The notes beneath the pieces were generated by a model. That model did no database searches. It was not told the DNA's origin and saw nothing but the letters and a program-made list of their open reading frames with translations. A DNA stretch of 64,000 bases from a virus, in IMG/VR virus record IMGVR_UViG_3300045253_000023, positions 1 to 64,000 of that record. One strand, written 5' to 3'. Within the stretch, counting starts at the first letter, position 1; each line of letters starts with the position of its first letter. A program made the translations under genes and the position numbers. Below, one piece after another: positions 12,294 through 42,497 of the stretch.

Positions 12294-13784
12294 ATGAGCA
12301 TTCCAAACAGCGCATACTATGCGTCGACAACCAAGACATGGACGAGTCTGGATTCCTATGCCGTCAACGACGTCGTGGTTTACAACCAGAAGCTGTATCA
12401 ATGTTCAGTTACCAGAACAGCAACAGCAACGACACCTGATGTTGACACCTCTCACTGGAATTTCCTGAACAACTATCTGCCTGCACAAGCAGTTGCGACA
12501 GATACATTCAAGACACTTCGCGAAGACATGGATTACCAGTTGCTTGGTACAGGCAACGTTGACTATCGTCTGACCAAAGCAGAGCTGGATGTTCTCAACA
12601 TCCTCAACAACAACTTCGGTGGATACTCTGCGCCACGCACAGGTTTGAATGCTCGCCTGACCACAGATGAAACTGCTATCACAGCCATCTTGGGATTGAC
12701 TGGCGCTCCATACACTGGTTCTGCGCTCAACACAGAAATCACTTCTCTGGAAACCAAGATTGCTAATGTCGTTGGTCAATCTGGTGCACCATACACTGGT
12801 TCTGCGCTTGCAACAACAATCACTTCTTTGCAGACACAGATCACCAATGTCGTTGGTCAATCTGGTGCACCATACACTGGTTCTGCGCTTGCAACAACAA
12901 TTGCTTCTGTTCTTTCGCGACTCACCACAGATGAAGGTGCAATCAATGCAATCTTGGCATTGAGTGGTTCTCCATACACTGGTTCTGCGTTGAAGACAGA
13001 GATTGATGGACTCGAAACCAAGATTGCAAATGTTGTTGCTCAGTCTGGCGCTCCATATACATCGAGCGCATTGGCAACAACACTGACATCATTGCAGACA
13101 CAGATCACCAACGTGGTTGCTCAGTCTGGTGCTCCATATGCTGGTTCCGCAATCGCAACAACACTGACTTCACTTCAGTCTCAATTGACTGCTATCTTGA
13201 GTCAAACTGGTTCGCCATACACTGGTTCTGCAATTGCCACCACGTTGACATCATTGCAGACACAGATCACAGCAATCAATGCCTATGGTTATGCGCGATT
13301 CAAGAATGCTTGGGTCACATCAACCGCATATGCTGTTGGTGATACTGTAACTCAAGGCACATTCTCTTCTGTCTATGTTTGCGCAACTGCACATACATCT
13401 GGAACCTTCGCAACTGATTTGGGCGCGGGCAAGTGGGTGCTGTTCCTTGATCTGACTGGAGCATTCAAGAAGTATCAGATCGTTGCTTCTTCAAGCACAC
13501 CAACATTGGCAGCAACTGCTGGTGGTTCATACTTCCTGGATTCGACTGGTGGTCCAATGACCATCAATCTGCCAACAACACCAACCATCGGCGACCCACC
13601 AATCAACTTCACGCATATTGATGGAGACTTGACTGATGTTGGTAATGCCTTCTCAATCACCATTGCGCATGGATCAAAGAACATCATGGGATTTGCTGAA
13701 GACCTGAAGCTCGACAAGAACAATGTATCATTCACTCTTGTCTATTCTGACACAACTCATGGTTGGAGGATAACCATCCTCTAA
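12294..13784 (+). CDS. Repeat-containing tail fibre protein
   Basis: A 496-residue protein. Residues ~10-52 are a carbohydrate-binding-like module ([20 protein letters not shown], Tyr-Gln-Cys, closing SHW), and a second such module is at ~340-385 ([14 protein letters not shown]...YVCATAH...KWVLF). Between them are seven copies of a ~27-residue unit, SG(A/S)[10 protein letters not shown] followed by a helical [12 protein letters not shown]; one copy is longer by exactly seven residues. The last ~100 residues ([20 protein letters not shown]) resemble the Gly/Ser beta domains of fibre tips. The units look like a shaft alternating short coiled coil with a turn. The stop overlaps the next gene's ATG (TAATG). 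Confidence 0.7.
12700..13290 (+). repeat. 81-bp coding repeat array in the fibre gene
   Basis: Seven in-frame copies of a unit centred on CCATACACTGGTTCTGC. Copies two and three, starting near 12769 and 12850, are almost identical over 81 bp, which indicates recent unequal duplication. The interval before the fourth copy is 21 bp longer. This is a protein-coding repeat, not a CRISPR array. Confidence 0.8.
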
Positions 13785-14560
13785 TGACTAAGCTCTATTC
13801 CTTCTTCCTTCCAATTGGTCCGCAAGGACCAACTGGTCCAGCAGGACCAACAGGTGCCCAGGGTTCAACTGGACCAACGGGTCCGAATGGACCAAATGGA
13901 CCAAATGGACCTCAAGGTGCTCAGGGAACAACTGGTCCTCAAGGCACTCAAGGTGCTACTGGTCCAAATGGTTTGCTTGGTCCGCAGGGCGCGGCTGGTG
14001 CGAATGGTCCGCAGGGCGCGGCTGGTCCAACAGGATCACAAGGAGCAACTGGTGGAACAGGAACAACTGGTCCACAGGGTGCTCAAGGTGCTCAGGGAGC
14101 AACTGGTCCAAATGGTCCAACAGGTGCTACTGGTCCAACAGGATCACAAGGTGCTCAAGGAAATCAAGGATCGATTGGTGCTCAAGGATCACCAGGAACA
14201 CTTGGTCCGCAAGGATTCCAGGGAGCAACTGGTCCTACTGGCGCAACTGGTCCAACAGGTGCTCAAGGTGCCGCTGGTCCAACAGGTGCTCAAGGTGCTC
14301 AAGGAGCAACTGGTCCTCAAGGATTCCAAGGAGTCGCTGGTCCAACAGGTGCTCAAGGTCCAACAGGAGCCGCTGGTCCAACAGGTGTTCAAGGTGCTCA
14401 AGGAGCAACTGGTCCAACAGGTGCTGCAGGCCCAACTGGTCCGCAAGGCTCGTCAGGCGGAACTGGTCCAACAGGCCCAACTGGCCCAACAGGCGGAACT
14501 GGTCCTCAAGGTGCTGTTGGTCCTCAAGGATTCCAAGGCCCAACTGGCCCAACAGGCTAA
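13784..14560 (+). CDS. Collagen-like fibre protein, no C-terminal head
   Basis: A 258-residue protein that is Gly-X-Y almost from residue 12 to its last residue (GPTG, GAQG, GPQG, GATG triplets). The ATG at 13784 is preferred over the in-frame TTG at 13763 for two reasons: it overlaps the upstream stop (TAATG), and the protein then begins [16 protein letters not shown], parallel to [17 protein letters not shown] of the next gene. Collagen triplets in phages form trimeric rods in tail fibres. This copy has no globular trimerisation or receptor domain after the collagen, which is odd. Many Gly-Pro-Thr triplets put Pro in the X position; whether these prolines are hydroxylated is unknown, but a 2OG-Fe(II) oxygenase lies two genes downstream. 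Confidence 0.85.
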
Positions 14561-14566
14561 TCTGCA

Positions 14567-15712
14567 ATGACAAAAACGGTGTCCTTCTTCAAGATTGGTA
14601 ACATTGGCCCAATGGGATCGACTGGGCCAACGGGCGCGATTGGGCCATTAGGCTCGGCTGGTCCTGCTGGAACTCAAGGCACTCAAGGCACTCAAGGTTC
14701 AACTGGTTTTGTTGGTTCAACAGGTCCAACAGGACATGCTGGACCAACGGGAACAACAGGTGCTCAAGGACCAACAGGAACTCCAAACGGAACTCAGGGC
14801 GCAGTTGGTCCAACAGGTCCAACTGGTCCTGTCGGTTCGATCGGCCCAACTGGAGCAACTGGCCCTCAGGGATTCGTTGGAAAAGTTGGTCCTCAATCTG
14901 GTGTCCAAGGTCCAACAGGAACTCAGGGTGCCCAAGGATCACAAGGTGCCCAAGGATCACAAGGTGTCAAGGGTGCTCCTGGAGCAACTGGCACTCAAGG
15001 TCCACAAGGAAATGTCGGAACTCAAGGTTCAAGCGGTGGAACGGGCGCTCAAGGACCAACAGGCGCAGCACCAGTCGGACCAGTCGGTTCAATTGGTCCT
15101 CGTGGTCCTCAAGGATTCGCAGGCACAGCACCAGTTGGTGCTCAAGGCCCAGCGTCAGCAGTTACTGGTCCGCAAGGACCAACAGGGTTTGCTGGTCCAA
15201 CAGGCCCAGCATCTGGCGTTCAAGGTGGAACAGGACCAACAGGTCATGCTGGACCAACTGGTTCGGCTGGTCCAACAGGAGCAACTGGTCCCCAAGGAGC
15301 TCAGGGTGCTCGTGGTCCTCAAGGTGCAACTGGCGCGCAAGGCCCAACCAACACATCTACCATCTTCCCTGGCCCAGCCGATGGTTCAACTTTGGTTTTT
15401 GGTTCACTCTCTCCTGGTACATTCTCGAAAGATTCTGGATCATATTCTGCTGTTGGTAGAGTTGGAGGCACAATCACTGGTTATTCATGGTCGTCGACCG
15501 TGATATCGTCAGATAGTGGTTTCTTGACTGCGTCTCCAAATTCTCCAAGCGCATCATCATCAACCATTCACGTTACAGATAAGGTCAAACCAGGAGCTGG
15601 TACAGATAATTTTGGTGTGTTGCATATTGCAGTCACAATCTCATATTCTGTTGGTCCGCCAGCTACAAGTGCGTTCCGTGTACTAAATACAGATTGGCAG
15701 AACCAAAACTAA
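14567..15712 (+). CDS. Collagen-like fibre protein with C-terminal domain
   Basis: A 381-residue protein starting 6 bases after the previous collagen gene and sharing its N-terminal signature (MTKxxSFF...GPxG). Residues ~14-262 are Gly-X-Y repeats with several short interruptions ([33 protein letters not shown]). Residues ~265-381 form a non-collagen domain ([20 protein letters not shown]...[13 protein letters not shown]...[12 protein letters not shown]), probably the receptor-binding or trimerising tip. The pair looks like a tandem duplication in which the first copy lost or never gained a tip. It lies immediately upstream of the prolyl-hydroxylase-like gene, with 19 bases between stop and ATG. 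Confidence 0.85.
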
Positions 15713-15731
15713 TCCAGAGGAATTCTATATC

Positions 15732-16355
15732 ATGTTGATGAAAGACCGTATATTCATGCCACCAGAAAGACCAGAATTCCCAAACTATGTCTTCACGAAA
15801 AACTTCTTGACAATATCAGAATGTGAACGATTGATTGGTGAGTGCGGAGAACATCCAGAACTGAAGTTCGCTGTTATTGGGAATGGAAGCGATGGAGTGT
15901 CTCAAGAAAACCTGGCATATCGAACAGTCAAAGTCAAACATCTTTGGGAAGACAGTTTTGATTGGGTGTATACCAAACTCCATGATGAGATTCTCAAAGT
16001 CAACAAGATTTTTGAATTTGATCTCTCTGGGATTGATGAGAACTTTCAGTTTCTGAGATATGATTCTCAGCCAGAAGGATCGGTCATTCCTCCTGGTCAC
16101 TATGGTTGGCATCAAGACTACGGTGGTGGCCCATACTCTAGGCGCAAGATTTCTGTAGTGGTGAACTTGTCGCCACCTGCAAATTACAAGGGTTGCTCTC
16201 TTGAAATCATGACACACAATGCGTTCACAGTTTCGCATACAGAACCAGGAACAATGATCACGTTTCCTTCATATCTACCACATCATGTGACGGATATCAC
16301 AGAAGGAACCAGATTTGCTTTGGTCACGTGGATATCTGGTCCGCGCTTCAAATGA
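15732..16355 (+). CDS. 2OG-Fe(II) oxygenase, prolyl-4-hydroxylase-like
   Basis: A 207-residue protein of the double-stranded beta-helix dioxygenase fold. The iron-binding triad is visible as H127-x-D129 (GWHQDYGGG) and H184 or H185 (PHHVTD), and the 2-oxoglutarate-binding basic residue as R194 (TRFALVTW), the spacing expected for P4H-type enzymes. An N-terminal PNYVFTKNFLTISECERLI matches the usual start of this family. Such enzymes hydroxylate proline or other residues using O2, Fe(II) and 2-oxoglutarate. Directly following two collagen-like genes in the same orientation, it is a strong candidate to modify them. The ribosome site is CAGAGG; an ATG two codons in (15738) is an alternative start. 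Confidence 0.8.
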   Translation: MLMKDRIFMPPERPEFPNYVFTKNFLTISECERLIGECGEHPELKFAVIGNGSDGVSQENLAYRTVKVKHLWEDSFDWVYTKLHDEILKVNKIFEFDLSGIDENFQFLRYDSQPEGSVIPPGHYGWHQDYGGGPYSRRKISVVVNLSPPANYKGCSLEIMTHNAFTVSHTEPGTMITFPSYLPHHVTDITEGTRFALVTWISGPRFK

Positions 16356-16406: not shown

Positions 16407-17024
16407 ATGAAAAATGTAATCCTTGGATTCCTACTCTTGACATTGGTGACTTTGTTTTCTCCAGTGGCTTTTGCAGATGACCAGCCAATCTTTGTTTCGC
16501 AAGCAACAAAAGACATGTCTGGCGACTACTATGCTGTCAGACAGTCAACACTGACTGGCGCAAGCACCGACTTGGCTTCACCAAACAGCGGAGTTGCTCT
16601 TGAAGTATTCCCTGCTGGAGACAGCATCTTCGGTGGCACATTCGTTGGCACCTTTGTTTTCGGTCAGGTGTATCTGGCTGGTTCTCCATGGTTCACATTC
16701 CAAACAGACCATGCTGATCAATTGAATGCTCAGTATCAAACAGCATTCTCCGTTGTCCTCGTAAGTACAACAATGACACCAGCTGGGACCGCAGTCAATG
16801 CGCAACTCGGTGAAGGTACGTTGACTTTTGATCCAGGATCAAATGGCGATGGACATACAGCGGATTTGTTGATGCATTTCGATGCACCATTCACTCTCTA
16901 CGGAACGTCAGTGAATAATGTGAGATTTCGTCTGCATCGCTTCTCAACATCTGCTGTTGATGCATGCTTGCCTGTTGATCAGTTCTCACCAGTTGCACCA
17001 TACGGAACGCTTCCTTGCCATTAA
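16407..17024 (+). CDS. Secreted protein of unknown function with signal peptide
   Basis: A 205-residue protein with a clear Sec signal peptide: MKN, hydrophobic core VILGFLLLTLVTLFSPVAF, and likely cleavage after AFA-D at about residue 24. The mature part is Gly/Thr/Phe-rich and beta-like, with two Cys in the last 20 residues (DACLPVD and the final PCH) that could form a disulphide in the periplasm. It resembles bacterial periplasmic or lipid-bound beta proteins rather than a virion component. Gene context (own late-type promoter, inside the fibre cluster, upstream of the longest fibre) suggests late expression. Possible roles are envelope modification, superinfection exclusion or receptor masking; none is proven. 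Confidence 0.7.
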   Translation: MKNVILGFLLLTLVTLFSPVAFADDQPIFVSQATKDMSGDYYAVRQSTLTGASTDLASPNSGVALEVFPAGDSIFGGTFVGTFVFGQVYLAGSPWFTFQTDHADQLNAQYQTAFSVVLVSTTMTPAGTAVNAQLGEGTLTFDPGSNGDGHTADLLMHFDAPFTLYGTSVNNVRFRLHRFSTSAVDACLPVDQFSPVAPYGTLPCH

Positions 17025-25634: not shown

Positions 25635-27356
25635 ATGGCTGACACAATTGTAGTTACATCTCCAGATAGCAGTGGAGTCAACACTGTTGGGCGAGTAAAT
25701 GTCAACACAAAAGATTCAGTCACCAACGCAACGTTGGTCAGAGGAGTAACTGCGCAAGGTGCGGAGATTCCTCCAGTTCAAATATCCACAATCAAAGGAG
25801 ATACTGGCTCAACAGGTCGAGTTGGTCCTAGCGGTGCGCAGGGTGCGCAAGGCGATCCAGGTCCAAGCGGTCCTCAAGGCTCAGTTGGCGCGCAGGGAGC
25901 GAGCGGCGGAGTTGGTCCTCAAGGAGCTCAAGGAACATCTGGTTCACCTGGTGCTGCAGGACCAACTGGATCACCAGGCGCTCAAGGTGCTCCTGGAACT
26001 ATCGGTCCTCAAGGATCAACTGGTCCAACAGGTTCAACTGGAATTGCTGGTCCGACTGGTCCAACAGGAAGCACTGGTGCGCAAGGAGCCACAGGAGCTG
26101 GAGTACCAGGAGCAGCTGGTCCAACGGGCGCAAATGGTCCGACTGGCCCACAAGGATTCCAAGGAGCAACTGGTGCAGGAACACCAGGAATTGCTGGTCC
26201 GACTGGTCTTCAAGGAGCTGTTGGTGGAACAGGCCCAACAGGTTCAACTGGTCCTCAGGGATTTCAAGGAAACACAGGCGGCATTGGACCAACTGGTCTC
26301 CAAGGAGCTGTCGGAACTACTGGTCCGACTGGCGGAAATGGTCCCCAGGGATTTCAGGGTGCTGTTGGAACAACAGGCCCAACAGGAAGCACTGGACCAC
26401 AAGGATTGACAGGAATAACTGGTCCGACTGGACCAACAGGCGGAACTGGACCACAAGGATTCCAGGGCGCTGTCGGAACTACAGGTTCGCAAGGAGCAAC
26501 TGGTGGTTCTGGACCAACAGGACCAACAGGAAATACTGGACCAACAGGATCACAAGGTGCTCAAGGATCACAAGGAGCTTCTGGTCCGACAGGAGCTAAT
26601 GGTCCAACAGGTGCTCAAGGATTCCAAGGTGCCGCTGGTCCAACAGGTGGCACAGGACCAACTGGTCTTCAAGGAGCAGTCGGAACGACAGGACCAACTG
26701 GACCAACGGGTGCTCAAGGTGCCGTTGGTCCTACAGGCGGAACTGGACCACAAGGACTACAAGGAAACACTGGTCCAGCAGGTTCAACTGGTCCGCAAGG
26801 ATTCCAAGGAAACACAGGCGTCACAGGGCCAACTGGTCTTCAAGGTGCGGTTGGAACGACAGGAGGAGCTGGACCAACTGGACCAACAGGCGGCACTGGT
26901 CCGCAAGGCGCGCAAGGTTCAGCAGGAACCACAGGTCCAACAGGACCAAATGGTCCACAAGGATCACAAGGAGCTGCTGGAGGAATAGGACCAACTGGTG
27001 GTAATGGTCCAACAGGCCCACAAGGTTCGCAAGGTGCAGCTGGTGGTGTCGGACCAACTGGACCACAAGGACCAACTGCCACCTTAAATAAGGTCACAGG
27101 ACTTGTTGATTTTGGTTCTGGCGCAAGTGAAGAGAATTCTGCTACAGTATCTGTTTCTGCTGCATGGGTGACACCATCAATGATGTTGATTCCTGTTGTC
27201 ACAGCGTATAGCGCAGATCATGACGATGAAGATGTCAATCTTGATTGTGTGTCTGCTATCACAACGAATATCAACAATGGCGTTGGTTTCGATATTATCG
27301 CATCTGCTCCAGAAGGAACTTGGGGCCGATACAACGTCACTGTCACTGGAGTATAA
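25635..27356 (+). CDS. Collagen-like fibre protein with C-terminal domain (third copy)
   Basis: A 573-residue protein. Residues 1-55 are a non-collagen N-terminus ([20 protein letters not shown]...[14 protein letters not shown]). Residues ~55-480 are nearly unbroken Gly-X-Y triplets, and the last ~90 residues are a beta-type tip ([32 protein letters not shown], ending [10 protein letters not shown]). That tip pattern, a W followed by hydrophobic strands, acidic DHDDED and a closing GxYxVxV, recurs at ends of phage fibres. It differs from the tip of the 14567 protein, so the phage carries at least two collagen rods with different ends. It lies downstream of the lysis genes and small paralogues. 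Confidence 0.85.
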
Positions 27357-41873: not shown

Positions 41874-42497
41874 ATGATTCCTGAGAATGTATTCAACGAT
41901 ACCACCATCTGGCACGATGACAATCCACATCGTTCTTTGATTGTTGTAGACAACTTCTATCGACATCCAGATGCGGTGCGTGAACTTGCGTTGAGGCAAG
42001 ATTATGTGGAAGACCTTCGATATTACAAAGGTCTGCGTACAAGAGAACAGTTCTTGTTCCCTCGCGTCAGGGAAACTTTTCAAGACCTTCTACAGTCCAA
42101 CATAACTGATTGGACAGATCAATCATTCAATGGTGTCTTTCAACAAACCAATTGCAATGATCCATTGGTATATCACTCTGATCTTCAGAGCTATGCCGCA
42201 GCCATCTATCTGAATCCTGCGTACCACCTTGAAGGTGGCACATCATTTTGGGCTCATACTCTGACTGGTCAAATGGACAGCAGAACAGACGATCCAGACA
42301 ACACCATATTCACCGCTGAATCTGTGCTTGACTCCAAACAATGGAGACTCGTTGACAAGGTGGCCCCAGTATACAACAGATTGGTGATTTGGGATGCGAA
42401 GCGTATTCATTCTGCTTCCTCATATCAAGCATCCACGAAATATGATCCTCGATTGGTGCAGTTGTTCTTCTTCAACACTTTCGACACCAAGTCTTAA
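41874..42497 (+). CDS. 2OG-Fe(II) oxygenase-like protein (DUF6445-type)
   Basis: A 207-residue protein with an apparent dioxygenase triad: H101-x-D103 (YHSDLQSYAA), H179 (AKRIHSAS) and R193 (DPRLVQLFFF), with strands between them (AAIYLNPAYHLEGGTSFWAH). It starts SLIVVDNFYRHPDAVRELAL, an N-terminus shared by a family of small phage and bacterial proteins annotated as DUF6445 or 2OG-Fe(II) oxygenases. The substrate is unknown. It has its own late-type promoter downstream of the capsid gene, so it may act late, for example on a virion protein or on nucleotides. It is not closely similar to the P4H-like protein at 15732. Confidence 0.65.
   Translation: MIPENVFNDTTIWHDDNPHRSLIVVDNFYRHPDAVRELALRQDYVEDLRYYKGLRTREQFLFPRVRETFQDLLQSNITDWTDQSFNGVFQQTNCNDPLVYHSDLQSYAAAIYLNPAYHLEGGTSFWAHTLTGQMDSRTDDPDNTIFTAESVLDSKQWRLVDKVAPVYNRLVIWDAKRIHSASSYQASTKYDPRLVQLFFFNTFDTKS

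Follow-up and report, generated by a model that had tools for sequence, protein, structure and literature searches.

The first 64 kb of the 161,561-bp virus record IMGVR_UViG_3300045253_000023, from a T4-like myovirus, were analyzed here and are referred to as the window. Within the window, four near-contiguous genes on the plus strand encode a 496-amino acid (aa) protein with long tandem repeats and a CBM_5_12 domain (12294-13784; Pfam PF02839, 7.6e-9), two collagen-like proteins, and an oxygenase of the 2-oxoglutarate (2OG)-Fe(II) type. The ATG of the gene for collagen-like protein 1 (13784-14560, 258 aa) overlaps the stop codon of the preceding gene (TAATG), the gene for collagen-like protein 2 (14567-15712, 381 aa) begins 6 bp further on, and the oxygenase gene (15732-16355, 207 aa) follows after a gap of 19 bp. 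A third collagen-like protein (25635-27356, plus strand, 573 aa) is encoded approximately 9 kb downstream. A preliminary description of this DNA had reported the three Gly-X-Y proteins and an oxygenase 19 bases after the second of them, and the open reading frames (ORFs) and profile matches agree with it (Pfam Collagen at 2.7e-37, 4.7e-30, and 1.7e-51 for proteins 1 to 3; PF13640 at 4.7e-11 and phrog_61 at 1.1e-19 for the oxygenase). Here, we describe a recurrent association of this oxygenase family with upstream collagen-like genes in phages, which suggests that the enzyme modifies the phage's own fibers.

Long uninterrupted Gly-X-Y tracts within a structural gene region are characteristic of collagen-like phage fibers, and the window contains them. 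Collagen-like protein 1 has 82 consecutive triplets without interruption, in which the Y position is chiefly Thr or Gln. The tract of protein 2 is interrupted (67 triplets when runs of 8 or more are counted) and is followed by a 120-aa non-collagen C-terminus; 143 triplets were counted in protein 3. Proline lies mostly in the X position, as had been described, accounting for 44, 33, and 34% of X residues in proteins 1, 2, and 3, compared to 9 prolines in the Y position among 292 triplets. Lysine is rare, with 1, 7, and 3 residues in the three whole proteins and only one Y-position lysine in the 67 triplets of protein 2.

The oxygenase has the sequence and structural hallmarks of the 2OG-Fe(II) superfamily, namely the PF13640 match, an HxD...H triad, a basic anchor residue, and a double-stranded beta-helix fold. 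The predicted Fe(II) ligands H127 and D129 (codons within 16110-16118) and H184 (16281-16283), together with the predicted 2OG anchor R194 (16311-16313), are invariant in an alignment of 64 sequences. This active-site set had been recognized previously with the distal histidine given as H184 or H185, of which H184 is the invariant one. At the position of R194, the prolyl 4-hydroxylase (P4H) of Bacillus anthracis has Lys, and PKHD/PiuC has Arg. The AlphaFold model of the enzyme (pLDDT 90.8) finds its best Foldseek match in the PDB in the P4H of Pseudomonas putida, with a TM-score of 0.74, and is also near the PHD-type prolyl hydroxylases of Dictyostelium and humans (TM about 0.6-0.65 for PHD2) and PKHD/PiuC. 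When a profile of the family was compared with solved structures, PKHD/PiuC gave the best matches (1.3e-15 to 8.8e-14), mainly over the C-terminal half; B. anthracis P4H was matched at 1.8e-6 over profile positions 18-198, and algal P4H and EctD were also matched. The modeled fold and the profile matches lead us to classify the window enzyme as peptide-hydroxylase-like. We do not classify it as a canonical collagen P4H, since it resembles P4H in overall fold and over the full length of the profile but has Arg194 instead of the Lys anchor. A second PF13640-like ORF lies beyond the window at 66627-67277; it scores 26-28 bits and is not matched by the family profile.

Because other phage 2OG oxygenases have been proposed to modify nucleic acids (PMC7029224), an AlkB- or TET-like activity on nucleic acids was also considered. 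The preliminary description had set the pocket of nucleic-acid demethylases against that of peptide hydroxylases as the contrast to be looked for in a structure model, and the model has the fold of peptide hydroxylases. No AlkB or TET structure is found among its 50 best PDB fold matches, which consist of prolyl hydroxylases, PKHD/PiuC, and further structures of the 2OG-oxygenase family, and the profile matches are to peptide hydroxylases, PKHD/PiuC, and EctD. We therefore regard a nucleic-acid substrate as very improbable.

The co-occurrence of phage collagen-like genes with adjacent 2OG-Fe(II) oxygenases, proposed earlier as a check, was confirmed. We searched viral contigs with the enzyme only, using a six-sequence query that included two cyanophage homologues lying near collagen; a single-protein scan of viral contigs found no close relative. 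Oxygenases that were 80% or more alike were removed before the loci were counted, and glycine-rich polyglycine-II-like tracts, which were counted initially, were later excluded. A collagen tract was present on the same strand within 5 kb upstream of the oxygenase in 19 of 33 non-redundant viral loci, compared to 1 of 50 downstream. Besides downstream flanks, the controls for this pairing were bacterial homologues, in which the same upstream arrangement was found in 0 of 47, and random viral loci (n=51, 509 kb), in which the oxygenase family was absent from all 51 and only two held a low-Gly G-X-Y run of 8 or more triplets. A neighboring phage oxygenase family had collagen within 5 kb in 0 of 30 cases. 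The reverse search, based on a collagen DNA pattern, recovered the family in 12 of 114 loci, 11 of which had collagen upstream. Separately, one bacterial homologue, on a contig of a Chromatiales endosymbiont (L246, 8001-9324), has a 39-triplet collagen tract approximately 540 bp downstream of the match. The "DNA polymerase I" encoded beside the oxygenase of phage NCTB was suspected of being a misannotated collagen; it proved to be a real polymerase-type protein without Gly-X-Y repeats.

Outside the window, 12 loci (10 distinct) have a collagen gene immediately upstream of the oxygenase, with a gap of 8-67 bp. The non-collagen C-termini of these direct partner fibers form five or more mutually unrelated groups, which leaves the collagen tract as their common factor. 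Phage fiber loci gather accessory genes, and the oxygenase could accordingly be a passenger in a hypervariable locus, its adjacency reflecting location rather than substrate. The family member of Xanthomonas phage PhiXhv-12, which lies among baseplate genes without collagen, fits this explanation, as does the presence of the second oxygenase-like gene of the window phage outside the fiber region. A passenger would not be expected to show the strong asymmetry in orientation (19 of 33 upstream, 1 of 50 downstream), operon-like gaps repeated with unrelated fiber tails, or the company of a specific glycosyltransferase even when the genes are unlinked, as described below. For these reasons, we consider it unlikely that adjacency is incidental.

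Glycosyltransferases are common in collagen-linked loci. The cyanophages S-PRM1, S-8S5x, and S-CAM9 share the order collagen fiber, small ORF, two oxygenases (the second being the homologue), and a protein of approximately 614 aa. The collagen fibers of all three carry lysine in the Y position, where it makes up 39-44% of residues in S-PRM1 and S-8S5x. Parts of the 614-aa protein match COLGALT1 (4e-22), the glucosyltransferase domain of LH3 (4e-33), mimivirus R699 (2.5e-31), and the mimivirus lysyl-hydroxylase domain (1e-9). These domain assignments rest on sequence matches; the structural model of this protein was poor (pLDDT 51) and was not used. Roseobacter phage CRP-6 likewise encodes the fusion, after a 99-triplet collagen fiber. 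In the records consulted, genes for this predicted GT25, PLOD glucosyltransferase, and lysyl-hydroxylase-like fusion, each after a lysine-containing collagen fiber, are annotated "hypothetical protein" (S-PRM1, L021:6531-8375; S-8S56, L020:2964-4829; S-CAM9, L457:5001-6845; CRP-6, L456:4926-6695). At two further loci, a GT4-GT25 fusion is encoded between the collagen fiber gene and the family oxygenase (L110:7524-9815, which also bears an OGFOD2-like oxygenase domain, and L102:7222-9582), and some other linked loci contain a GT2 plus a GT4-OGFOD2 protein.

One rare GT2 family is encoded directly 3' of the oxygenase in 7 of 80 family loci and nearby in an eighth; the 331 loci with which these were compared (control, collagen-only, random, and bacterial) contained no member. 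Beyond the window, at 113340-114572, the window phage encodes a GT2 that belongs to this same family (32-38% identity); the GT2 profile included this protein, and the pairwise scores behind these identities are independent of the profile. A search of 50,697 phage records gave a single near-full-length relative of this GT2, encoded by a 735-kb uncultured phage (LR756501.1, deposited twice), which has very many collagen tracts (in frames of up to approximately 3,500 aa), a family oxygenase, and the GT2. The kinship of the GT2 and the content of the 735-kb phage suggest that collagen, oxygenase, and GT2 keep company even when unlinked.

Sugar enzymes among the neighbors, such as WavE and the GDP-sugar enzymes beside the S-SCSM1 homologue, could also be taken to mean that the substrate is a small molecule or a surface glycan or lipid, hydroxylated in a PiuC-like or lipopolysaccharide-modifying reaction that aids host takeover or superinfection exclusion. 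The top rank of PKHD/PiuC in the profile comparison with solved structures points in the same direction. Such an activity predicts neither linkage to collagen nor collagen-specific GT25/PLOD partners, and we judge it improbable.

The X/Y composition of the collagens does not point to one residue as the target of hydroxylation. Of the residue types that are classically hydroxylated, X-position proline is the commonest in the window because lysine is almost absent from the Gly-X-Y tracts. The vertebrate rule for collagen P4H calls for proline in the Y position, which is found in 9 of the 292 window triplets, and lysyl hydroxylases (PLOD/LH) call for Y-position lysine, which in protein 2 is limited to the single residue mentioned above. 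In other phages, the direct partner collagens range from 0 to 52% in X-position proline and from 0 to 34% in Y-position lysine; for the partners of close homologues, X-position proline ranges from 4 to 39%. The share of X-position proline is no different in collagens that have an oxygenase nearby and in those that do not. Given that this value varies among partners and is the same in linked and unlinked collagens, the specificity may vary within the family, or the target may be another residue. The preliminary description had proposed that an enzyme able to hydroxylate proline acts on these fibers. Action on the fibers is our best reading, based on the fold and the recurrent linkage; proline as the target is not supported.

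We propose that the product of 15732-16355 is a phage peptidyl hydroxylase that acts on the collagen-like fibers encoded upstream of it, possibly followed by glycosylation by the GT2, and we assign this reading a probability of about 0.62. Its basis is the combination of a peptide-hydroxylase fold with a recurrent link to collagen across fibers with unrelated tails, and the presence of collagen glycosyltransferases in some of these loci. The enzyme would be made together with the fiber proteins encoded just upstream and would hydroxylate residues of the Gly-X-Y chains, the simplest timing being ahead of triple-helix closure; the GT2 may then add a sugar to the new hydroxyl. The modified fibers would presumably be carried on the virion, and collagen-like protein 3 is a possible further substrate.

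Several observations weigh against this proposal. A strong family member is present in 73 of 80 pelagiphage- or cyanophage-type "ferrochelatase" loci, where collagen is practically absent, and the bacterial homologues also lack collagen linkage, so this broad family must include members with a substrate other than collagen. The "ferrochelatase" oxygenase set was planned as an independent control, but most of its loci hold the query family as well, and it is used only as a within-family contrast. The partner collagens have no Pro or Lys position in common, and the tract at L060, a relative of the window, contains no proline. The window enzyme is poorly placed on a long branch (0.95), and the tree does not settle its nearest kin. 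The GT2 of the window phage is 97 kb distant from the pair, and no GT25/PLOD match was found in this phage, in a search whose positive controls were silent as well. On the tree, the collagen label requires 11 changes (at least 4 of them forced) and is clustered, with one clade of 29 rows (98% support) that includes 19 collagen-linked members. Among the nearest named relatives of the window enzyme, a collagen gene is one gene away at L060, and in Stenotrophomonas phage DLP_6 the enzyme gene overlaps a fiber gene with short Gly-X-Y stretches.

The many family members without collagen nearby could instead indicate that the enzyme hydroxylates a non-fiber protein of the host or phage, such as EF-Tu or a ribosomal protein, particularly as the nearest fold (TM 0.74) is that of P. 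putida P4H, which was solved in complex with EF-Tu. A substrate of this kind would leave unexplained both the same-strand upstream collagen linkage across unrelated fibers and the link to collagen-type glycosyltransferases, and we consider it about as unlikely as the passenger explanation.

Genes for the gp23-type major capsid protein, portal, sheath, and terminase lie 3' of the fiber region, those for sheath, portal, and capsid within the window; the nearest capsids in phage records are only approximately 45% identical to that of the window phage. Directly 3' of the oxygenase, 16407-17024 encodes a protein of 205 aa that begins like a signal peptide and matches no Pfam family. Scans for promoters and terminators gave nothing above chance level. 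A DUF6445 gene (phrog_1644, "minor coat") at 41874-42497 directly follows the gp23 capsid gene, and DUF6445 genes also adjoin the family oxygenase at L042 and L095 and are close to it at L110.

Descriptions of collagen hydroxylation and glycosylation usually concern animals and giant viruses; prolyl hydroxylation is also described for a few bacteria. Viral collagen hydroxylation is already known from chlorella virus and mimivirus. Phage collagen fibers have been reported (PMC3368898), P4HA genes of phages have been mentioned as being of cryptic use (PMC9301287), and uncultured phages carry automatic names such as "procollagen-lysine 5-dioxygenase"; our literature search found no paper describing a phage collagen-modification module. 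The recurrence of the pair in many unrelated phages, some of which add glycosyltransferases to it, suggests chemical finishing of collagen by the phages themselves, in a manner similar to that of animals. We speculate, more tentatively, that phages encode complete mobile collagen-finishing modules of fiber, hydroxylase, and glycosyltransferase for virion adhesin rods, of which the window phage would have a split, Arg-anchored version with a dedicated GT2, acting at a noncanonical position such as X-position proline. If collagen modification is confirmed, it would account for phage oxygenases that are widespread but as yet unassigned, show how Gly-Thr/Gln-rich fibers acquire stability or receptor properties, and provide new bacterially expressed enzymes for the production of modified collagen. 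Cultured carriers of the LH3-like version are available in Synechococcus phages S-PRM1 and S-CAM9 and Roseobacter phage CRP-6.

Comparison with known systems places the window enzyme among several relatives without equating it with any of them. It matches the phrog_61 phage oxygenases (cyanophage T4-GC 412 and kin; 1.1e-19), many of which, by contrast, adjoin an oxygenase annotated "ferrochelatase" without collagen nearby. PKHD-type PiuC shares the Arg at the 2OG-anchor column and ranks first in the PDB by sequence profile, but the match is chiefly to the C-terminal half and PiuC has no collagen link. P. putida P4H and PHD2 are the closest solved folds; however, they are less than 20% identical to the window enzyme, and they act on EF-Tu and HIF rather than on collagen. 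PHD2, too, anchors 2OG with an Arg. The P4H of B. anthracis has a PF13640-type fold and a near full-length profile match, and differs in its Lys anchor and in not being part of a phage operon. It hydroxylates both X- and Y-position prolines of (PPG)n peptides (PMC8968730). Mimivirus L230 and R699 and human LH3 and COLGALT1 have homologous domains united in one protein of the cyanophage relatives, whereas the window collagens are nearly free of lysine in their Gly-X-Y tracts. The P4H of Paramecium bursaria Chlorella virus 1, which acts on proline-rich peptides (Eriksson 1999, as cited in PMC9301287), is likewise a virus-encoded hydroxylase; going by its description, it is set apart by belonging to a eukaryotic virus, whereas the window gene adjoins the genes for its presumed collagen substrate.

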